37,144 bases of DNA from Colwelliaceae bacterium. Lineage in GTDB: Bacteria > Pseudomonadota > Gammaproteobacteria > Enterobacterales > Alteromonadaceae. Below the pieces are notes generated by a model, which saw nothing but the letters and a program-made list of their open reading frames with translations, did not search any database and had not been told where the DNA came from. The stretch lies in contig JAGSHH010000009.1 in the NCBI GenBank assembly GCA_023954655.1, forward strand, positions 1 to 37,144. Direction: 5' to 3'. The position numbers were made by a program, and so were the translations under genes. Of the stretch, positions 1 through 37,144 are shown piece by piece (positions within the stretch are counted from its first letter, which is position 1; every line of letters begins with the position of its first letter).

Positions 1-2046
1 ATGCTCGCAATGATCGATACCGCACAATCGGTATTTGGTTCGTGGTCAAAAACGCCAGTTTCAGAACGTGCAGCGTTATTATTTCGTGTTGCCGATATTC
101 TGGAACAACATACTGATGAGCTAATTGCCTTATGTATTAAAGAAGCCGGCAAAGTTACTCAAGACGGGATTGATGAAGTAAGAGAAGCGGTCGACTTTTG
201 TCGTTACTATGCCCAAAAAGCCATAGAACTTGAGTCCGATGAACGTTTGGAACCTCGCGGTGTAGTCTTATGTATTAGCCCTTGGAATTTTCCATTAGCA
301 ATATTTTTAGGACAAGTTGCAGCTGCAATTTCAACTGGAAATACAGTATTAGCAAAACCAGCTGAACAAACCAGTTTGATTGCTTTACGTACCATTGAAT
401 TAATGAAAACTGTTGGCTTGCCTGATGGCGTTGTACAAGCCGTAATAGCTAGAGGAAGTCAGGTAGGAAGTATTATTATTCCTGATGAACGTATTCAAAC
501 AGTAATGTTTACAGGATCTACTGCGACTGGCACTTTAATTTCACAAACCTTAGCAGAAAGGGGTGGCGATCAAGTACCACTTATTGCTGAGACCGGCGGT
601 CAAAACTGTATGATTGTGGATTCTACCGCTTTGCCTGAACAAGTAGTTGATGATGTGATTTCTTCAGGCTTTCAGTCAGCAGGTCAACGCTGTTCGGCGC
701 TTAGAGTGTTGTTTTTACAAGAAGATATTGCCGAGAATGTTATTACTATGCTCAAAGGAGCATTAGCTGAATTACATGTAGGGAATCCTGCAAAATTAAG
801 TACTGATGTTGGCCCTGTTATTGATCAAAAAGCGCTAGAAGCACTTAATGCCCACAGTGATTATATGCAAACAAATGGTCAACTTCTTTATCAATGTGAA
901 ATATCTGAAGAAGTGGCAGGTAACGAACATTTCTTTTTTGCTCCCAGGCTTTATGAAATCAAAGATATCAACATTCTAAAACAGGAAGTATTTGGTCCAT
1001 GTGTACATATTGTACGCTTTAAAGGTAAAGACATAGAAAGTGTAATAGATAAAATTAATGGTACTGGCTTTGGTTTAACTATGGGTATTCATACACGTAT
1101 TGAACAACGTGCTTTTGATTTAGCCAAGCTATCACGAGCAGGTAATATTTATATTAATCGTAATATGATTGGCGCAATCGTTGGCGTTCAGCCTTTTGGT
1201 GGCCGTGGCCTTTCGGGTACTGGACCAAAAGCAGGTGGCCCAAATTATTTATCACGTTTAGTAAAGGAAAAATCAACGCCTAATGCCGAGCAATTTAATT
1301 TATTAACCGCACAACTTGACGCCTTAGATGGTGATGAAGAATCTGTAAATGAAGCAAATTCATATATGGATAAAGCAAATACCGCCGAGAAAAATTGGCG
1401 TTTAACCGAGTTAAATACCCGCATTTCTTGTGTTCGTCAATTATTAGCAAAAATTGCTCATGTGGGAATTGTTGATGATTTAGCTGAAGATTTAGATCGC
1501 ACTTTAACTGCAGCAAGATCACAGTTAATTAACATTGAAAAACGACTAAAGAAACCAACTTTGTTACCGGGGCCAACGGGTGAGTCTAATATTCTTTATT
1601 TAGAAAACCGCGGAAATATTATTTGTTTTGCTGATAAAAACGTTACATTTCACTTTTGGGTGTTGTCGATTGTCACAGCTTTAGCTACGGGTAATACGGT
1701 GATCACAGTTGTTTCAGATTTATTTTATGATGAAGCACTCGCCTTTAGAGATAAATTCATAGCTACTGGCGAAGATAAAAATGTTTTTCAAGTTGCCCGA
1801 CTTTGTCACTTAACAACAATGTTAGCTCATCCTGCATTATCTGGCATCGTTGTCGATAGTACTTGTGATCGCAAACATTTTTTCAGTGAAAAGTTAGCAG
1901 AACGTCAAGGTGCAATATTGCCGGTGATAAGTTCTGAATACTTTGATAATTTAATACAGCGCTTAGTAACAGAAAAGACAGTAAGTATCGACACTACCGC
2001 TTCTGGTGGTAATACATCTTTGATGACATTGGTTGAAGAAGATTAA
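1..2046 (+). CDS. putA: Bifunctional proline dehydrogenase / P5C dehydrogenase PutA, C-terminal part (5' cut by window)
   Basis: This is the aldehyde-dehydrogenase half of PutA, which oxidises glutamate semialdehyde (from P5C) to glutamate with NAD. Seen here: the 'SPWNFPLAIF' substrate/NAD region near visible residue 93, the 'ETGGQN' glutamate at visible residue 197 and the nucleophile in 'GQRCSA' at Cys231, then 'PFGGRGLSGTGPKAGG' near 400. After about residue 430 comes a roughly 250-residue tail that resembles the C-terminal domain of long PutA proteins. The ATG at base 1 is almost certainly internal: the proline dehydrogenase domain, and in some lineages an N-terminal DNA-binding domain, should lie to the left. 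A stand-alone P5C dehydrogenase is the alternative, but the C-terminal extension argues for PutA. It ends just before a terminator shared with the convergent kinase gene. Confidence 0.9.
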   Translation: MLAMIDTAQSVFGSWSKTPVSERAALLFRVADILEQHTDELIALCIKEAGKVTQDGIDEVREAVDFCRYYAQKAIELESDERLEPRGVVLCISPWNFPLAIFLGQVAAAISTGNTVLAKPAEQTSLIALRTIELMKTVGLPDGVVQAVIARGSQVGSIIIPDERIQTVMFTGSTATGTLISQTLAERGGDQVPLIAETGGQNCMIVDSTALPEQVVDDVISSGFQSAGQRCSALRVLFLQEDIAENVITMLKGALAELHVGNPAKLSTDVGPVIDQKALEALNAHSDYMQTNGQLLYQCEISEEVAGNEHFFFAPRLYEIKDINILKQEVFGPCVHIVRFKGKDIESVIDKINGTGFGLTMGIHTRIEQRAFDLAKLSRAGNIYINRNMIGAIVGVQPFGGRGLSGTGPKAGGPNYLSRLVKEKSTPNAEQFNLLTAQLDALDGDEESVNEANSYMDKANTAEKNWRLTELNTRISCVRQLLAKIAHVGIVDDLAEDLDRTLTAARSQLINIEKRLKKPTLLPGPTGESNILYLENRGNIICFADKNVTFHFWVLSIVTALATGNTVITVVSDLFYDEALAFRDKFIATGEDKNVFQVARLCHLTTMLAHPALSGIVVDSTCDRKHFFSEKLAERQGAILPVISSEYFDNLIQRLVTEKTVSIDTTASGGNTSLMTLVEED

Positions 2047-2080
2047 TCACAGGTTAATTGATTAGTTTTCTTATGAACAT

Positions 2081-2112
2081 AAAAAAGCTCTTCGATATGA
2101 AGAGCTTTTTTT
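2081..2112. terminator. Bidirectional intrinsic terminator, putA / histidine kinase
   Basis: A 13-bp stem (AAAAAAGCTCTTC paired with GAAGAGCTTTTTT) surrounds a 5-base loop GATAT. A-runs and T-runs flank the GC core on both sides, so it can work in either direction. It lies 35 bp after the putA stop and 32 bp from the stop of the convergent kinase gene. Confidence 0.9.
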
Positions 2113-2143
2113 AGTTTTATCGTTCTATATAACCTGAACTAGG

Positions 2144-3508
2144 TTATTTAGGTAATGACAAAGTCACATTTACACCTGAATTTTCTTTAGCATTTTCTAT
2201 TTCTATCAAACCATTGTGATTAAACATTATTTGTCTGCATAGTGCTAAACCTATACCACTACCATGATTTTTAGTTGTATAAAAAGGGACAAAAATATTA
2301 TCTAAATTGGCTATTCCAGTGCCATAATCACGAATAATAATATGCTGCCAACTTCCTTCTTTTTGACAAATAATATTAATTGTTTTTTCTTGATTCAAAT
2401 TCATTGCTTCTACAGCATTTTTAAATAGATTGATCAGTATTTGCTCAAATTGATTTTTATCTGCTTCAATAATGACGTCCTTATCAAATAAGCAATTTAT
2501 TTGACATGTGGGATAGAGAGTCGCGAGAGTATTGACCATCGATGTTAAAGCAAAAGGTATTTTATTTGGTTTAGGCAAATGAGAAAGTTGACTGTAGCTT
2601 GAAATAAACTGGCTTAAAGAATCTGCTCTTTCATTAATTATACTGGTTCCTTCCAGAAGTGACTCTTTAGGTAACTCTTTATGGTTTTGTTGTAACTTTT
2701 TTTGCATCGACTGACTAATAGAAATAATTGGGGTTAATGAGTTATTCATTTCATGACTTAATACTCTAAGCAAGCTTTGCCAGGCATTACGCTCTTTCTC
2801 CATTAACAAACGTTCAGCGTTTGTCAGAATATAAAGTTGATGTTTCTTTCCTTCACTTAAAAATGATTCTTTAAATAAAAAATGTTCTCCTTTAATTTTA
2901 CCTTGATTTAGTTCACCTCGTTCAAATTCAATAATACCTGTATTAGCGTTAACAATTGCTGTTCCTACCGATAAAGTTGATAATTTAATACCAGATAAAT
3001 TATCTACATCTCCTAAAATAAGTTTATTGGCAGATGCATTTGCCATAACGATATAACCTTGTTCATCAGTCGCGATTACCATTGCATCCATCTGCTCCAT
3101 AATACGCTCTAATAACAGTTTAGATTCTTTAGCTTCAATTTTATGTTTTGATAATGTGCTCGCTAAGTTATTAATTAAATCAAGTAATTCTTGAAACGCC
3201 TGGTTGGTTTGTAATCGTCCTCTTAAGGTGTAATCACCATCAATCATCGATTCAATTAAGTTAGACAGCGTACGAATTTGATATTCAGAGTCTTGTTTAC
3301 TTGCTACAACAACGTATGTACATAACAGAAATAAAACAATAAGAATAAAAGCAATTAAATAGCCTGATATTTGGGCTAAAAAGAGGGCAATAGCAGTAAT
3401 CAGAAAGCAAGGAATACAAACCAATAATACTAACCTTTGTTGATTGCCTCCACGATGAGATTTTGATTTAACAAATAACAACTGCCAAAATGATTTAATC
3501 CAATTCAT
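2144..3508 (-). CDS. Membrane sensor histidine kinase, NtrY-like
   Basis: A 454-residue sensor kinase that should phosphorylate the response regulator encoded just upstream. Two adjacent membrane segments (about 25-45 and 48-68) leave almost no periplasmic loop, so the stimulus is probably sensed in the membrane or cytoplasm. A HAMP-like linker (about 70-120) and a PAS domain (about 130-230) follow. The phospho-acceptor is His252 in 'SHEMNNS'. The ATPase domain has N-box Asn360/Asn364 in 'INLFKNAVEA', 'DYGTGI' at 394-399 and 'GSGIGLALC' at 416-424. The ATG overlaps the regulator's end by 14 bp, so the two are translationally coupled. The ligand is unknown; the linked efflux genes suggest envelope stress or a toxic compound, which is an inference. 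Confidence 0.9.
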   Translation of the reverse strand: MNWIKSFWQLLFVKSKSHRGGNQQRLVLLVCIPCFLITAIALFLAQISGYLIAFILIVLFLLCTYVVVASKQDSEYQIRTLSNLIESMIDGDYTLRGRLQTNQAFQELLDLINNLASTLSKHKIEAKESKLLLERIMEQMDAMVIATDEQGYIVMANASANKLILGDVDNLSGIKLSTLSVGTAIVNANTGIIEFERGELNQGKIKGEHFLFKESFLSEGKKHQLYILTNAERLLMEKERNAWQSLLRVLSHEMNNSLTPIISISQSMQKKLQQNHKELPKESLLEGTSIINERADSLSQFISSYSQLSHLPKPNKIPFALTSMVNTLATLYPTCQINCLFDKDVIIEADKNQFEQILINLFKNAVEAMNLNQEKTINIICQKEGSWQHIIIRDYGTGIANLDNIFVPFYTTKNHGSGIGLALCRQIMFNHNGLIEIENAKENSGVNVTLSLPK

Positions 3509-4868
3509 ACTTGCTCAACCGTCTGTAATAACCACTACGACTCAAACCTAAAGACTTAGCTGTTTCTGTAGCATTACCTCGAAAAAACTTTAACCGTTGA
3601 GCCAAGGCTTTTTTCTCTATTTGTTCCATGCTTAATGTTGGGTCATCTAAAGATTCTATATTATTGGTTGTCACAGTCAGCATTAAATCTTCAGCATCGA
3701 TACTTTCTTTCTTACATGTAAATAATACACGTTCCATTAAATGACTTAATTCTCTGATATTACCCGGCCAGCTATATTGCTGTAATGACGTGATAGCTTG
3801 TGGTGACAATTTAGGACAAACACGATGATATTTAGCGCTAAAAGAATGAAGAAAATGCTCTGCTAAAGCAGGGATATCCTCTGCCCTTTCAGCTAAAGAT
3901 GGAACATGTAATTGAATAGTATTTAATCGATAATAAAGGTCTTGTCTAAAGGTATTGTTGGTAATATCAGTTAATAAATCACTATTGGTCGCTGAGATAA
4001 TTCGCACATCTGCATGTAATGATTTACTGCTACCAACGGCTTCAAATTTTCTCTCTTCTAATACACGTAATAATTTAGCTTGTTGAGCAAGTGGAATATT
4101 GGCTACTTCATCTAAAAATAAGGTTCCTTGATCAGCCATTTCAAAACGACCTATACGATTTTCTTTAGCATCAGTAAACGCCCCTTTGACATGACCAAAC
4201 ATTTCACTCTCAAAAAGTGATTCAGGTATAGCGCCCATGTTTACGGGTACAAATGAATTTTTAGACCTAAGAGATACACGATGTACATAGGATGCAAGCA
4301 TGCTTTTTCCAGTACCATTGTCACCTGTGAGTAAAATACTCATATCACTTTTAGCTAAATCATCTAACGTTGATAATAAATTTTGCATCGTAGGGGATTG
4401 GGCAATAATACCTGTTCTATTCTCTGGATGAGATTGGGCTGTTAATAGCTTATTTTGTTGACTAAGTCGTTGAGCTTTTTTATTTGAGTTTGCTAATGCC
4501 AATTGAATATCAATTGCATTGAGTAAACGTTCATTCTTCCACGGCTTTTGAATAAAATCTTTTGCGCCTGCTTGCATTGCTTCAACAGCAATATCAATAG
4601 TAGCCCAACCAGTCATCATGATAATTGGTATGTTTAAATCAAGTGATGTTATCGCCTCAACTAACTTCACCCCTTCAGCACCTGACGTTGTATCTTGTTG
4701 AAAATTCATATCCAACAAAATCAAATCAACACTTTGAGTTTTTAAATTTTCCAATGCAGCTTGTGGCGTTGTAACAGCTAAAATATCAAAACCTTCATCG
4801 GCTAACATATACTTTAAACTCGCAATGATATTTATATCATCGTCGGCAATAAGAATTTTTTTATTCAC
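3495..4868 (-). CDS. Sigma-54-dependent response regulator, NtrC family
   Basis: A 457-residue enhancer-binding protein. The receiver domain (about 4-120) has acidic residues Asp10/Asp11, phospho-acceptor Asp53, Thr86 and Lys108. The AAA+ domain has Walker A 'TGDNGTGKS' (181-189), the sigma-54 contact loop as 'GAFTDA' (229-234) and Walker B 'FLDEV' (251-255). A Fis-type helix-turn-helix closes the protein ('GNATETAKSLGLSRSGYYRRL'-like region). The start is GTG at 4868, placed directly before 'NKKILIADDD'; no strong ribosome site is visible. The gene follows the transporter genes after a terminator hairpin and overlaps the kinase gene. A sigma-54-like promoter before the adaptor gene is the obvious target. 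The family is clear; the regulon is inferred. Confidence 0.93.
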   Translation of the reverse strand: MNKKILIADDDINIIASLKYMLADEGFDILAVTTPQAALENLKTQSVDLILLDMNFQQDTTSGAEGVKLVEAITSLDLNIPIIMMTGWATIDIAVEAMQAGAKDFIQKPWKNERLLNAIDIQLALANSNKKAQRLSQQNKLLTAQSHPENRTGIIAQSPTMQNLLSTLDDLAKSDMSILLTGDNGTGKSMLASYVHRVSLRSKNSFVPVNMGAIPESLFESEMFGHVKGAFTDAKENRIGRFEMADQGTLFLDEVANIPLAQQAKLLRVLEERKFEAVGSSKSLHADVRIISATNSDLLTDITNNTFRQDLYYRLNTIQLHVPSLAERAEDIPALAEHFLHSFSAKYHRVCPKLSPQAITSLQQYSWPGNIRELSHLMERVLFTCKKESIDAEDLMLTVTTNNIESLDDPTLSMEQIEKKALAQRLKFFRGNATETAKSLGLSRSGYYRRLSKYELD

Positions 4869-32658: not shown

Positions 32659-32688
32659 GGCAACCGCTTCTTTAGATCATCCGTCTAA
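32659..32688 (+). promoter_or_regulatory. ECF-type promoter of the serine hydrolase gene
   Basis: GGCAACC (32659-32665), a 16-bp spacer and CGTCTAA (32682-32688). The 'AAC' -35 core and 'CGTC' -10 core are the form used by ECF sigma factors. Both elements and the spacing are the same as at 34448-34477 before the ECF operon. The leader to the ATG at 32804 is about 110 nt. The rest of gap 32513-32803 holds only AT-rich sequence and the pepB promoter region. Confidence 0.75.
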
Positions 32689-32803
32689 GCTCTTTAAATT
32701 CAGTCAAATAATGGCCATGAGCAAAAAGAATGAACAAGGTTAGGTTTATCAGCCAGCGATCATTTTCTATGGAACTCAGGCAAAGCAAATTAAAGGAAAA
32801 ACA

Positions 32804-34291
32804 ATGAAACAAATATCCCTTAGAGAAAATTTAACTTATTTACTCTCCACTTTATTATTGATTGCTAGCTTTTCAAGCATCGCAAGTACAAACAATCAAA
32901 ATGTATATTCCAAAGCGTCAAATGAAGTGTTGATTAAAAAGACGGATGAAATCATTAAGCTGTATACAGATCCCGATTGGTTTTCTGGAAGTGTGGTGAT
33001 TTTTAAAGACAATAAAGTTATCTACGATAAGAGCTTTGGTTTAGCTGATATAGAAAAAAAAGTTAAAAATACATCGTCTACAAGAACAAGAATTGGTTCT
33101 ATTAACAAACACTTTACTGCAGCTCTAATCATGCAGAAAGTTCAATCTGGACAATTATCATTGGACGATAAGCTGGAAAAATTCCAACTTGGCTTCCCAA
33201 AAAATGTTGCTAATAAAATTACCGTACGTCATCTGTTGAAGCATACCTCGGGTTTTGCAGACATATTTAATCGTGAATATTACGAAACGTACCGTTCATT
33301 AAAGACTATCAATGACAAACTTCCCTTATTACGAAATAAGTCGCTTATTTCTGAGCCGGGCAAAGAGTTTAACTATTCAAACTATGGTTATATTGTTTTA
33401 GGGGCGATTTTAGAAAAAATTGAACAGAAAAGCTTTCAAGCAATTATTACTGACAACATTTTGAATATTATTAAAGCAGACAATACCGTATATGATTTGA
33501 CTGAGAACATCGACAATAAGGCAAAAAGTTATCACTTTTCCCCATTAGGCGAAAAAATTGATCGAACAAGTAGATTAGAAAACTTAACACCTGATGGCGG
33601 TATGTACTCCACTCCTTATGATTTGGCACTATTTTATTCAAAACTTTTTTATAGTAACCAGTTACTTAACGATCAATCAAAAGCAATGATGAAAAATCAT
33701 TATAAAGAAACAATTAAGCCATGGGCAGAGTTTTTAGGCAGCGATAAAACCAAAATAATATCTTATGGCGGAGGCCCTGGTGTGAGTGCAGCTGTAGAGG
33801 TATTAATAAAAGATAAATTCATGGTGATTGCCCTAGCTAATACAGATGGCGTAGTTGCAGAGCGTATCACGCAAAGAGTGACTGAAGTTTATCAAGGTAA
33901 AGAATATAAAAAAGTGATATTACCATTAGGAATTTTTGCAAAATCACTGTTAGATAAAAAAGGCAGTGCTTACTTCATAGAGAATGCAAAGCATGAGTTT
34001 TATCAAGCGGGATATAATGACTTTAAATCAAGATCATTAAAATTTACGGCAAGACCATTGAACAAATTAGGCTTCTCTTTAATTAATAATAATCAAATTG
34101 ATAAGGCTATTAGTGTCTTTATTGTTAATACAAAACTATTCCCAACAGAGCCCAATACCTTTGATAGCTTAGCTTTAGCCTATGAAAAAATAGGAGATAA
34201 AACAAAAGCGTTAACTAATTATAAGCAAGCACTGTTATTAGATTCAAATTTTGAGTCAGCTAAAGAAGCATTATTGCGATTAAGCCAATAG
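32804..34291 (+). CDS. Secreted serine hydrolase (class C beta-lactamase-like) with TPR C-terminus
   Basis: A 495-residue protein with a Sec signal (1-28, 'SSIAS' at its end). The beta-lactamase/D-Ala-D-Ala carboxypeptidase-like domain (about 45-365) has Ser99-Ile-Asn-Lys102 (SxxK), Tyr191-Ser-Asn193 (YxN) and 'GGGPG' at 322-326 in place of the KTG/HxG box. Two or more TPR units follow (about 405-490; 'NTFDSLALAYEKIGDKTKAL'). AAGGA is 6 nt before ATG 32804. Similar fusions in marine bacteria are annotated simply as serine hydrolase; esterase, peptidase or peptide-cleaving activity are all possible. Its promoter matches that of the adjacent ECF operon, so it is likely a target of that sigma factor. 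Confidence 0.85.
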   Translation: MKQISLRENLTYLLSTLLLIASFSSIASTNNQNVYSKASNEVLIKKTDEIIKLYTDPDWFSGSVVIFKDNKVIYDKSFGLADIEKKVKNTSSTRTRIGSINKHFTAALIMQKVQSGQLSLDDKLEKFQLGFPKNVANKITVRHLLKHTSGFADIFNREYYETYRSLKTINDKLPLLRNKSLISEPGKEFNYSNYGYIVLGAILEKIEQKSFQAIITDNILNIIKADNTVYDLTENIDNKAKSYHFSPLGEKIDRTSRLENLTPDGGMYSTPYDLALFYSKLFYSNQLLNDQSKAMMKNHYKETIKPWAEFLGSDKTKIISYGGGPGVSAAVEVLIKDKFMVIALANTDGVVAERITQRVTEVYQGKEYKKVILPLGIFAKSLLDKKGSAYFIENAKHEFYQAGYNDFKSRSLKFTARPLNKLGFSLINNNQIDKAISVFIVNTKLFPTEPNTFDSLALAYEKIGDKTKALTNYKQALLLDSNFESAKEALLRLSQ

Positions 34292-34447
34292 GCTTTATAA
34301 CTAACTTATGTGCTACAAATAGCAAGTAATCAAACTATTTATGGCACAACACGTTTTCAAATATGCAGTATTTAACTCAATATAAAAATTAATTGAATGT
34401 GCCAATTATTACATTAGGTAATTGGATGAAAGATTTTCACTTTGTTA

Positions 34448-34477
34448 GGCAACCGCTTTATCAACTAGCCCGTCTAA
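34448..34477 (+). promoter_or_regulatory. ECF-type promoter of the sigma-factor operon (autoregulation)
   Basis: GGCAACC (34448-34454), a 16-bp spacer and CGTCTAA (34471-34477); GGCAACCGCTT and CCGTCTAA are shared with the site at 32659. The predicted leader to ATG 34514 is about 30 nt. In gap 34292-34513 a 7-bp inverted repeat CCAATTA / TAATTGG (34402-34425) also lies just upstream of it and may be an operator. Confidence 0.75.
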
Positions 34478-34513
34478 CCTATTTTAAAGTAAATAAAAAA
34501 CAGGATTATTAAC

Positions 34514-34939
34514 ATGAACACAGTATGGATTTGTCTAATTTCACTCATCGCTTTCTGGCTTGCACTAAGAAGTATTAACACTCACTTAAAGCAACAGAAG
34601 CTGATTAAAGTTAGAGAGATGCTACATACAGAGCGAGTAAAGAGTCTAGAAACAGATGCTGAGCCTATAGATATTAACTTTGAGATGGAAGCCATGGAAC
34701 AAATGATGAGTCAATCAGTTACTACTTCTACAACTTTTATGAGGATCTGGCATCAAGTGAGCTTTAGATTGGGTATATTTTTTATTGCACTAAGTGCTGT
34801 GGGGTCGACCTTTTTATTGATAGCAATGTTGTCAGAGGTTGAGCTCAGGCATGGCGCGATTCCTATGGCATTGGCTCCTTTATTTATTGGTATTCCTCTG
34901 CTTGTGACTAACTTTCTCAGTAATAAGTACTTGAAATAA
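34514..34939 (+). CDS. Three-helix membrane protein, possible regulator (anti-sigma candidate) of the ECF factor
   Basis: A 141-residue protein I cannot assign to a named family. Membrane helices are predicted at about 4-19, 86-107 and 116-134; the middle part (22-80) is charged and acidic ('DAEPIDINFEMEAMEQMM'). AGGA is about 8 nt before the ATG. The ECF sigma gene starts 2 bp after its stop, so the two are made together. Many anti-sigma factors are small membrane proteins, but most are encoded after the sigma gene and have one helix, so the role is only inferred. The transcript starts at the ECF-type promoter. Confidence 0.7.
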   Translation: MNTVWICLISLIAFWLALRSINTHLKQQKLIKVREMLHTERVKSLETDAEPIDINFEMEAMEQMMSQSVTTSTTFMRIWHQVSFRLGIFFIALSAVGSTFLLIAMLSEVELRHGAIPMALAPLFIGIPLLVTNFLSNKYLK

Positions 34940-34941
34940 GT

Positions 34942-35511
34942 ATGTCTGAGGAAGTCGAACAGGACACTTGTAACCAGTTAGTCGATGAGTTTCTTAAGTC
35001 AGGAGATCATCACACTTTCTCTCAGCTACTTAAGTGTCATCAGTCATCGATAAAGAGCATTGTTATAGCTACGCTTGGTGTGCATTTTCGAAGTGAAGCT
35101 GATGATGCTTGCCAAGAAGTCTATATTAAGCTCTATGAGAGATCTAAAAGCTATATAGGGAAAAGTAAATTTACCACTTGGTTGTATCGGTTAGTAAAAA
35201 ATACAGCAATTGATTATCAACGTAAGCATGCGCGTCATCTTGCAACACAAGCCTATGAAGACGAGGAAATGATAGACTGGCAAACACCTAATGAAATAAT
35301 TAGTGAACCAGTTAACCAGTCAATTAATGAATTTGTAGAACAACTGCCACTTCAATATCGAACGATAGTTTACATGCATTACTGGCAAGGAATGACAACA
35401 ATGGAAGTTTCGAAGCATTTGTTAATTTCACAAGGTACAGTAAAGGGTTATTTGCATAGGATCAGAAAACAAATTTCCATTATTATTAATGATAATAATA
35501 TAAGAGAATAA
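34942..35511 (+). CDS. ECF-family RNA polymerase sigma factor
   Basis: A 189-residue sigma-70-family protein with region 2 (about 25-98; 'DDACQEVYIKLYE' and 'FTTWLYRLVKNTAIDYQRK') and region 4 (about 126-178; 'LPLQYRTIVYMHYWQGMTTM' with 'GTVKGYLHRIRKQ' as the recognition helix). Region 3 is absent, which defines ECF factors. It should bind core polymerase and read the GGCAACC/CGTCTAA promoters at 32659 and 34448. The ATG is 2 bp after the membrane-protein gene and 5 bp separates its stop from the next ATG. Which ECF group it belongs to needs a full alignment. Confidence 0.92.
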   Translation: MSEEVEQDTCNQLVDEFLKSGDHHTFSQLLKCHQSSIKSIVIATLGVHFRSEADDACQEVYIKLYERSKSYIGKSKFTTWLYRLVKNTAIDYQRKHARHLATQAYEDEEMIDWQTPNEIISEPVNQSINEFVEQLPLQYRTIVYMHYWQGMTTMEVSKHLLISQGTVKGYLHRIRKQISIIINDNNIRE

Positions 35512-35516
35512 TAAAT

Positions 35517-35978
35517 ATGAAGTACATTTTAATCATCGTGATATTACTCACAACTATAATTTCGGCAAAATCAGCAATGGCTTCAAACTGTGATTCACAG
35601 TGTCAATTGTCTCAAATTAACGCATATTTTTCAGCTCTAGATAGAGTTAGCCAAAAAGGTTCAAGTATTGAAGATATCGATTCATTGTTGTCATTAACTC
35701 ACGATAATGTCCAATACGTTCATGTAGAGTATGAAGCCAACTTTACTAAAGCGTCTTGGCGTAAGGCTTTTATACGTAATTTGAAACGTGGTGCATATCA
35801 AAATAGCAATAAAAATGAAATGCGTGTTCTCAATAGTATTTTTGGTAAAAACCATACCGCCATAGAATATTCTCATGGTGTAATTCAAGCTGACGGCACT
35901 TGGCAGAAAACGGAACCATTGCTGGTTGTGTTTGGTTTTACTAACGGAAAAATATCGCTAATTAAAGAGTTATGGTAA
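35517..35978 (+). CDS. Secreted NTF2-like (SnoaL-type) protein
   Basis: A 153-residue protein with a Sec signal (hydrophobic 3-17, cleavage near 'SAMAS'), then 'CDSQC' at 25-29, and an alpha/beta body whose ordering ('INAYFSALDRVSQ', 'LLSLTHDNVQYVHVEY', 'VFGFTNGKISLIKELW') is the NTF2/SnoaL cone fold. Such small secreted proteins bind or convert small molecules, but nothing here tells which. AGAGA lies about 10 nt before the ATG, and the gene is 5 bp after the sigma-factor stop, so it is the third gene of the ECF operon. It faces the cassette array tail-to-tail. Confidence 0.8.
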   Translation: MKYILIIVILLTTIISAKSAMASNCDSQCQLSQINAYFSALDRVSQKGSSIEDIDSLLSLTHDNVQYVHVEYEANFTKASWRKAFIRNLKRGAYQNSNKNEMRVLNSIFGKNHTAIEYSHGVIQADGTWQKTEPLLVVFGFTNGKISLIKELW

Positions 35979-36039
35979 AAGTTTTTAACAAGTCGATAAC
36001 CTACGTGGAACCTAATAAGTTCTATATATCAACTGAGAA

Positions 36040-36143
36040 ACATAACGCCTATTTAAGGGGCTTTTATGAGTTTGCTAAAATGTGAAACGAAGTAAAACTT
36101 AGCAAACCCTTAAAAGTCCCGTTACTGTAATGGCTTGTTAGGT
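36040..36143 (-). other. attC recombination site, distal cassette
   Basis: On the minus strand the site begins ACCTAACAAGCCATTACAG and ends TAGGCGTTATGT, with inner arms around the core TTTCACATTTTAGC. It is 104 bp long. The last box GTTATGT is less canonical than GTTRRRY; its outer six bases come from the host side, as expected for the last cassette in an array. The CDS of this cassette ends inside it. Confidence 0.85.
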
Positions 36144-36452
36144 ACAACTTGCCATTAACTGTTTTTGTAACTCAGTATTTTCACAACCAATTATATTTAA
36201 TCCAATAACCTTATTTTTAACTGAATAAGTTACCATAACTGTATATTCTTGATTACCCGTTGGAAATGAGTCCTCAATTTCGTCAGCACTGTAACCAACA
36301 AACTCAATGTTAAATGCTGAATTATCTGATGCAAAAGAGCTACAAGATATTATTACACAAGCTTCTAATTGTTTAGCAAAAGCCTTTTCACCTTCATCAA
36401 TAAGTGAACCTTTAACTTCATTGAATAATTCTGTTAACGTTTCCTTAAACAC
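36138..36452 (-). CDS. Integron cassette protein of unknown function
   Basis: A 104-residue protein I do not recognise. I start it at GTG 36452, with GGAG 6 nt upstream and 16 bp after the upstream attC; the open frame continues back to 36530 but that part is attC sequence. The protein is mostly soluble, with an N-terminal amphipathic helix, 'ACVIISCSSF' strand, an acidic stretch ('ADEIEDSFPTG') and a final strand with 'YTVMVTYSVKNKVIGLNIIG'. Four cysteines are present. The TAA stop is supplied by the attC box (ACC-TAA). It is the last cassette of the array. Confidence 0.7.
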   Translation of the reverse strand: MFKETLTELFNEVKGSLIDEGEKAFAKQLEACVIISCSSFASDNSAFNIEFVGYSADEIEDSFPTGNQEYTVMVTYSVKNKVIGLNIIGCENTELQKQLMASCT

Positions 36453-36467
36453 CAATATCTCCGTTGT

Positions 36468-36565
36468 ACCTAACGCCCTAATAATGGGCAAAAAATTGTT
36501 TGCTAAAATGTTGAGGAACGAAAACAGCAAACTGTTTTTTGTCCTTATTTATTAGCTTGTTAGGT
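36468..36565 (-). other. attC recombination site, second cassette
   Basis: On the minus strand it runs from ACCTAACAAGC to GGGCGTTAGGT, 98 bp. The GTTAGGT box at 36474-36468 fits GTTRRRY exactly. Inner arms GTTTGCTG and AGCAAAC pair across the central stretch with CAACATTTT, so the bottom-strand hairpin needed by the integrase can form. Confidence 0.88.
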
Positions 36566-37018
36566 AGCATTACCATCCGAACTAATCTTTTTTATTAACT
36601 TGATTTGTGGAGTGCTCTGACAAATTACTTCTAAGCACTCATCATCCGTTATTAATAAATGTGACCACTCATCTGAGTTACCCATAAAAAAAGTTAAGGG
36701 GCTTTCTTTGTGCCAGCCGTGATTTTTAACTTTAAATGTATTTTTTGTAGGGTGATTTGAACTCCAAATCTCTGTTAACCCATGTTCATCGAGGCAACGG
36801 TAACCATTAACTTGCTCATAAGATATTTCGTATAGAGATTCTGTATCTTCGTGAAACACTCTGGCAATTAAATCATTATTTTTATGGCTTTCATTTCCCG
36901 TAATTTTGTATGTTTTACCATCCGATTTTTCAAGTATCCACTCCTTGGTTCCCCAAGAAAGATCGACTAGCCAAACCTTACCAGCTTCAAACAGTGTGGA
37001 CCAAGTGCCAAATTCCAT
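36560..37018 (-). CDS. Integron cassette protein of unknown function
   Basis: A 152-residue protein I do not recognise. It is beta-rich and tryptophan-rich ('GTWSTLF', 'VDLSWGTKEWIL', 'EIWSSNHP', 'GNSDEWSHL'), with no signal peptide or membrane segment, and ends in 'KKISSDGNAT'. ATG 37018 is 6 nt after the upstream attC box; the AGGT of that box is at ribosome-site distance. The TAA stop is the ACC-TAA of its own attC. It lacks known toxin, antitoxin or acetyltransferase motifs. As an immunity-like or lipocalin-like protein it would fit in outline, but this is guesswork. Confidence 0.75.
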   Translation of the reverse strand: MEFGTWSTLFEAGKVWLVDLSWGTKEWILEKSDGKTYKITGNESHKNNDLIARVFHEDTESLYEISYEQVNGYRCLDEHGLTEIWSSNHPTKNTFKVKNHGWHKESPLTFFMGNSDEWSHLLITDDECLEVICQSTPQIKLIKKISSDGNAT

Positions 37019-37024
37019 CTTGCT

Positions 37025-37125
37025 ACCTAACGCCCCATTAAGAGGCTTTTAATTGTTGGTTAAAATGTGAAGCGAAGCGGAACCTAACCAACTGTTAAAA
37101 GTCCTGCTTGAATGGCTTGTTAGAG
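37025..37125 (-). other. attC recombination site of the preceding cassette
   Basis: On the minus strand it starts CTCTAACAAGCCATTCAAGC and ends GGGGCGTTAGGT, 101 bp, the pattern of marine gammaproteobacterial integrons. The central part contains TTCCGCTTCGCTTCACATTT between arms GTTGGTTA and TAACCAAC. The gene it belongs to lies beyond the window; 37126-37144 is only its tail. Confidence 0.88.
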
Positions 37126-37144
37126 CTATTTAGCACGCCAATAG

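Follow-up and report, generated by a model that had tools for sequence, protein, structure and literature searches.

A probable self-contained, autoregulated extracytoplasmic function sigma factor module with a serine hydrolase as its conserved output in Colwelliaceae

The 37,144 nucleotides of contig JAGSHH010000009.1 in the assembly of a Colwelliaceae bacterium (GCA_023954655.1; this whole stretch is henceforth the window) carry a compact group of genes centered on an extracytoplasmic function (ECF) sigma factor. Two matching promoter-like elements are found here, one ahead of a serine hydrolase gene and the other ahead of a gene run that contains the sigma factor gene itself. The features of this group, to which we refer as the module, are as follows:

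32659..32688, + strand: promoter P1, ECF-type (-35 box GGCAACC, 16-nucleotide spacer, -10 box CGTCTAA), an exact match upstream of the hydrolase gene
32804..34291, + strand: predicted serine hydrolase with the S12/beta-lactamase fold (Pfam), 495 amino acids, probably exported, with a C-terminal TPR-like stretch
34448..34477, + strand: promoter P2, ECF-type, boxes and spacing as in P1, an exact match upstream of the membrane-protein gene
34514..34939, + strand: membrane protein, 141 amino acids, three transmembrane (TM) segments predicted by homology, putative remote relative of DUF6249 and candidate anti-sigma factor
34942..35511, + strand: ECF sigma-70 factor, 189 amino acids (Pfam Sigma70_r2 and Sigma70_r4_2; TIGR02937)
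35517..35978, + strand: predicted NTF2/SnoaL-fold protein (AlphaFold and Foldseek), 153 amino acids, probably exported, 5 nucleotides behind the sigma gene

ECF promoters typically display an AAC in the -35 box and a CGTC in the -10 box at a comparable spacing. As the first-pass annotation of this DNA had reported, GGCAACC-N16-CGTCTAA occurs without a mismatch at both 32659-32688 and 34448-34477, and the gene coordinates agree with its placement of one site before the genes for the membrane protein, the sigma factor and the NTF2-like protein and of the other before the hydrolase gene. A direct reading of the sites likewise recovers the conserved blocks of 11 and 8 bases that it had described, namely GGCAACCGCTT and CCGTCTAA, at equal spacing in both. 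In the window, the -10 box of P1 is separated from the hydrolase ATG by 115 nucleotides and that of P2 from the membrane-protein ATG by 36, while a gap of 2 nucleotides lies between the membrane-protein and sigma genes. The leader downstream of P1 also contains, at 32711-32743, an ATG-TAG reading frame of 10 codons.

The sigma factor shows matches over the cut-off to both Sigma70_r2 (E 4e-13) and Sigma70_r4_2 (E 3e-13) in Pfam, and scores 94.4 bits against a cut-off of 42.9 with the NCBIfam model TIGR02937. It consists of regions 2 and 4 with little else, which is the defining layout of the ECF (group IV) sigma factors. A search of 395 genomes of the same family, in which at most 8 candidates were scored per genome, recovered orthologues with at least 77% identity in four genomes (that of the window included), with the next best match at 32%; scoring of all candidates in 98 genomes yielded two orthologues (E <= 1e-20). 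In a collection of named genomes covering 84,980 species, a scan seeded by two short peptide patterns, from which the window's own genome was perhaps excluded, matched four loci: Colwellia sp. ALOHA_DT_126, Litorilituus lipolyticus RZ04 (also a member of Colwelliaceae), Colwellia sp. 12G3 and a Bryobacterales match of 31%.

A comparison of gene neighborhoods, one of the checks proposed with the first-pass annotation, revealed that the order of hydrolase, membrane protein and sigma factor is kept in all three of the other modules. Each of these also has both P1 and P2 with all 14 bases intact, amounting to 8 of 8 sites across the four genomes; an ECF-type promoter before the sigma operon is hence conserved among the orthologues, P2 being free of mismatches in each of the four modules. 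The conservation is concentrated in the boxes: in pairwise comparisons across the sites these are 100% identical, as against 59-65% for the spacers and 45-57% for the 40 nucleotides flanking either side. Moreover, the P1 box is kept even as the distance from P1 to the hydrolase ATG ranges from 34 to 226 nucleotides among the modules. The eight sites additionally have in common a TT near the beginning of the spacer, a C ahead of the CGTC and a TT.AA slightly downstream.

The motif was also examined for its specificity. In the window's genome (3,002,014 bases scanned, 80.6% complete), the proposed scan for GGCAACC-N15-17-CGTCTAA returned two matches, both at the module, and the reversed pattern with the same spacers returned none across the whole genome. 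Allowing up to three mismatches within the window gave three matches against 1.49 expected from shuffles, with 15 of 100 shuffles reaching three; the relaxed count is unremarkable on its own, and it is the two exact matches that are notable. With up to two mismatches and N16, the whole genome has six matches, both module sites among them, versus 12 in the control, giving no sign of extra sites.

An exact scan with spacers of 15-17 across 395 family genomes, apparently the same as those of the sigma search, yielded 31 matches in 25 genomes; the four modules account for eight of them, at two per genome. The remaining 23 are spread over 21 of the 391 genomes without a close orthologue: 21 lie inside open reading frames (ORFs) of at least 100 amino acids and two are intergenic, while three (G205, G348 and G419) are near-copies of a single coding site. 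Profiles of the sigma factor, the membrane protein and the hydrolase had no match in the loci of 2.3-3.0 kb around these 23 sites, and the 23 matches look like chance occurrences. In the four module genomes, a 17-base form of the motif produced 8 exact matches, a further match at two mismatches and 23 at three; single-mismatch sites were absent. The candidate wider regulon from this relaxed form was rejected, with 24 non-module matches versus 48 in the reversed control; loci were available for 22 of the 24, and 21 of these 22 sites are inside ORFs. Within the reach of a near-exact search we see no sign of another strong target, and the strong direct regulon of the sigma factor is probably made up of the P1 and P2 units alone.

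The product of the P1 unit is related to the beta-lactamase family (Pfam PF00144, E 5e-48) and has a TPR_2 match (E 4e-6). Its sequence relatives in the PDB, obtained with a profile that also contained the paralogue from one of the other module loci (L009, see below), are S12-type enzymes such as PBP-like proteins, DD-carboxypeptidases, ClbP and LACTB. Enzymes with the S12/class C beta-lactamase fold are characterized by the motif set SxxK, YxN and H/K-x-G. Alignment shows the first two to be present, as S99-K102 and as the YSN at Y191-N193. The third reads SYGG in 4 of 4 modules versus SHGG in the L009 paralogue, with a tyrosine replacing the His/Lys. Among the best 25 of 52 entries from NCBIfam, which includes models for resistance enzymes, none reaches the cut-off for the hydrolase. 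An N-terminal signal-like stretch, read directly, indicates that it is probably exported.

Comparisons of the four loci with BLASTN recovered little besides the module matches. L038 and L039 share one block that begins in the -10 half of P1 and ends with the sigma stop, and the window and L038 share a block from 32794 to 35501, which starts shortly ahead of the hydrolase ATG and finishes close to the end of the sigma gene. In the comparison of L009 with L038 the P1 region forms a separate block of 79 nucleotides, and there is an additional 32-nucleotide match within aminotransferase genes. At 4272-4475 in L009, P1 and the hydrolase gene are some 190 bases further apart than in L038, with the promoter boxes unchanged. 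Among ORFs of at least 90 amino acids in 12-15 kb per locus, those common to the loci are the module genes and their paralogues, save for a 37% match between two aminotransferases. Since the flanks are not shared between the loci within the 12-15 kb compared, the module is by this comparison an accessory unit. Just downstream of it the window has three repeats (36039-36144, 36467-36566 and 37024-37126; TAACGCC ... GCTTGTTAG, with inner inverted arms) that flank two small minus-strand ORFs (36138-36530 and 36560-37018). These repeats are attC-like, and the region resembles an integron cassette array.

The last gene of the window's sigma operon presents a different picture. Its product has a SnoaL_2 match under the Pfam cut-off (E 0.04), and its predicted structure (AlphaFold, predicted local distance difference test score (pLDDT) 91) matches ketosteroid-isomerase/SnoaL/NTF2-like folds in the PDB, with a best Foldseek E of 2.6e-7; the gene is real and codes for a probably exported NTF2-fold protein. 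Relatives are found in 27 of 196 genomes, including that of the window, with one in G049 outside the module. In 12 loci of such relatives (L097-L108), each taken with some 1.5 kb to either side, profile searches found no ECF gene. A hydrolase-profile match occurs within about 1.5 kb in three of the 12 (L098, weakly, L105 and L106), and there may be a loose link of these relatives to beta-lactamase-type hydrolases. Membership in the system, which the first-pass annotation had granted this gene, is not upheld: it follows the sigma gene in the window and in none of the three other modules, and we reject it as a core part. It is probably co-transcribed with the sigma gene in the window, yet a local addition.

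The gene between P2 and the sigma factor is the candidate for a regulator. It ends 1-2 nucleotides ahead of the sigma gene in 4 of 4 modules, and the window copy of its product shares 75-78% identity with those of the other three modules. Against DUF6249 (PF19762) it scores 14.3 bits (E 0.04), with the cut-off at 33, and a DUF6249 search of the window genome at E <= 0.001 had no match; it was accordingly rejected as a DUF6249 protein proper. A profile-profile comparison with 12 DUF6249-type proteins gave an hhalign E of 4e-6 and a probability of 87, across 48 columns only, and TM prediction on three orthologues of the membrane protein shows that they have the three-TM layout of DUF6249-type proteins in common. 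Taken together, this suggests that it is a remote relative of DUF6249. The AlphaFold model is of low confidence (pLDDT 71, predicted template-modelling score (pTM) 0.44).

DUF6249 genes themselves are linked to ECF sigma factor genes. We found 18 matches in 16 of 59 genomes of the family (14 over the cut-off) and four, all over the cut-off, in three of 229 genomes of the class at E 1e-7. All 18 matches over the cut-off have an ECF gene as their immediate same-strand neighbor downstream, and so has one match below it (L086), for a total of 19 of 22 (L073-L086, L089 and L092-L095). In L079 and L080 the adjacency is by coordinates, as the automatic choice of the sigma start makes that gene overlap with the DUF6249 stretch. 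The weak matches in L087, L088 and L090, which lie within open frames of 571 to 1072 amino acids, have no ECF gene downstream. Behind the sigma gene, all 15 family loci have an ORF of 70-122 amino acids with two predicted TM segments (without the N-terminal part in L076, L078 and L080), and in the four class loci an ORF of 114-137 amino acids takes this position. Six of the 15 two-TM proteins were scanned against Pfam; a weak DUF5056 match in two was below the cut-off, and their assignment to a known Pfam family was rejected.

These units resemble the module in having a three-TM-type protein directly before the ECF gene. A match to the hydrolase profile, which included the L009/L089 hydrolase, is present upstream in five of 15 (L077, L078 weakly, L081, L086 and L089) and downstream in two (L083 and L085). 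They differ from the module in the two-TM protein behind the sigma gene, no such small ORF being found directly after it in any of the four modules, and in sigma factors that belong to another clade. A common promoter for these units was sought and rejected: AAC-N16-19-CGT[CA] was not found before DUF6249 in 13 of 13 loci tested (L079 and L080 excluded). In L009 (G049) the module has a divergently oriented neighbor at 895-3968, a paralogous unit that codes for a TPR serine hydrolase of 568 amino acids, a DUF6249 protein, an ECF sigma factor and a two-TM protein.

A phylogeny built from 45 sigma factors (the four of the modules, 15 linked to DUF6249 and 26 others picked by similarity to the module sigma), with an arbitrary root, unites the module sigmas in one clade with a support of 100/100 on a long branch. 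The DUF6249-linked sigmas form a second group (100/97) and the others a third (96/75). The tree offers no support for a sister relationship of the module sigma to the DUF6249-linked ones, with the caveats of the long branch, the arbitrary root and the choice of the other 26 by similarity. The module sigma appears isolated, and the likeness in layout to the DUF6249 units may be either old or convergent. Within the searchable open-licence PubMed Central (PMC) literature, only a plant-kinase paper surfaced for DUF6249 and none for DUF5056. The linkage of DUF6249 to ECF genes (18 of 18 over the cut-off) points to a possible, testable role for a family without a known function. It is conceivable, if rather doubtful, that the DUF6249-like three-TM protein represents a novel class of membrane-bound anti-sigma factors and that DUF6249 proteins are generally dedicated ECF regulators, the version here acting without a two-TM partner in a portable unit of sigma factor, antagonist, sole output gene and both promoters.

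From the comparison of genomes, P1 and P2 are very probably promoters of the linked sigma factor, and we consider it likely, with good confidence, that the promoter pair and the autoregulation form the core of a self-contained autoregulated ECF module. In this model the sigma factor (34942-35511) would direct RNA polymerase to P1 and P2. Transcription from P2 would cover the membrane-protein and sigma genes, creating a positive loop, while that from P1 would produce the probably exported S12/beta-lactamase-fold hydrolase as the conserved output of the module. The membrane protein might hold the sigma factor at the membrane via the stretch of about 60 residues between TM1 and TM2, from which an envelope signal might free it. 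The parts to which the comparative evidence lends support are the promoter pair, its link to the sigma factor and the conserved three-gene core. The earlier claim of two matching ECF-type promoters before the sigma operon and the hydrolase is borne out, the sites being intact in all four genomes with the motif at background in 391 others. The claim that secreted proteins are made applies to the hydrolase, given its signal-like stretch; the sigma operon, for its part, has a membrane protein as its second conserved product. The description of the system as a switch is not supported, the envelope signal being a presumed one and the membrane protein a candidate anti-sigma factor.

Several observations weigh against the model as a whole. 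There are just four modules, all from related genomes; near-exact scans would miss weaker targets, and the window genome is 80.6% complete. The module sigma falls outside the group of DUF6249-linked ECFs in the tree, and the link of the membrane protein to DUF6249 lies under the Pfam cut-off, with a poor structure model. Furthermore, searches of Pfam and NCBIfam (for the hydrolase, the best 25 of 52 entries) found no recognized anti-sigma domain in the membrane protein, the NTF2-like protein or the hydrolase, though an antagonist of a kind not yet described may be present.

This last result also favors the alternative that survives best, namely that the core is true while the sigma factor has no protein antagonist, its own transcription being the sole control and the membrane protein having a different role. 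The absence from 4 of 4 modules of the two-TM protein that follows the ECF gene in 15 of 15 family DUF6249 loci speaks for it as well, and there are ECFs on record that have no anti-sigma factor (PMC8999054). We regard it as a serious possibility that falls somewhat short of probable: the near-abutting position of the membrane-protein gene ahead of the sigma gene in every module, and its degree of conservation, are as expected of a dedicated partner.

Alternatively, the promoters could be real and yet be owned by or shared with another ECF sigma factor, the linked sigma gene being merely a target. The window genome indeed has two further ECF-like sigma matches (E <= 1e-12) that could use the same promoter class, and such sharing has a precedent in Streptomyces coelicolor, where most of the tested sigmaE targets are only partially sigmaE-dependent (PMC6767563). 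However, all four genomes with the linked sigma carry the exact motif at the module, and the 391 others, 364 of which have another sigma match (E <= 1e-12), show it at background level; the alternative is improbable. Still more improbable is a reading in which the repeats serve a DNA-binding regulator, or stem from duplication of a leader element, and are no sigma promoter: a dimeric regulator could bind two blocks at a fixed spacing, but within one site neither block is a direct or an inverted copy of its partner, the two match ECF -35 and -10 boxes in sequence and spacing, and an ECF gene adjoins the sites in each of the four modules. Chance resemblance, which can produce the motif as the 23 matches in 21 of the 391 genomes attest, has a negligible likelihood for the module sites, as the retention of all 14 bases at 8 of 8 orthologous positions within diverged flanks speaks strongly against it.

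If only the core of the preferred model, the autoregulated module, is true, it would be a tidy but ordinary autoregulated ECF system. Since the predicted direct regulon would be complete and local, the sigma factor, its promoter specificity, its output and its antagonist could all be tested with one fragment of about 3 kb.

With respect to systems already studied, promoters of the S. coelicolor sigmaE agree with P1 and P2 in boxes and spacer length: PMC6767563 gives GGCAACC-N16-CGTCTT for hrdD and GGCAACC-N16-CGTCTA for sco2807. The same source describes a large actinobacterial regulon with another gene set, in which sigmaE is unlike the module. Among the open-licence PMC papers listed for ECF factors together with Colwellia, Alteromonadales, serine hydrolases or beta-lactamase family proteins, we found no description of the gene set of the module. 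The SigAb-AabA-AabB system of Acinetobacter baumannii, as presented in PMC12153292, is comparable in being a lineage-specific ECF with an autoregulated operon and a tiny direct regulon, with three promoters supported by chromatin immunoprecipitation, which we liken to that predicted for the module. Its promoter also has an AAC in the -35 box and a CGT in the -10 box, with a run of T between the boxes and A/T-rich sequence preceding them, and differs in being GTCAAC/CGTT with a 17-base-pair spacer (PMC12153292). SigAb differs further in having two anti-sigma genes downstream of sigAb, and relA and a small RNA as additional direct targets (PMC12153292). By analogy, SigAb appears to be the closest studied parallel that we found for a lineage-specific ECF sigma factor with a very small direct regulon.

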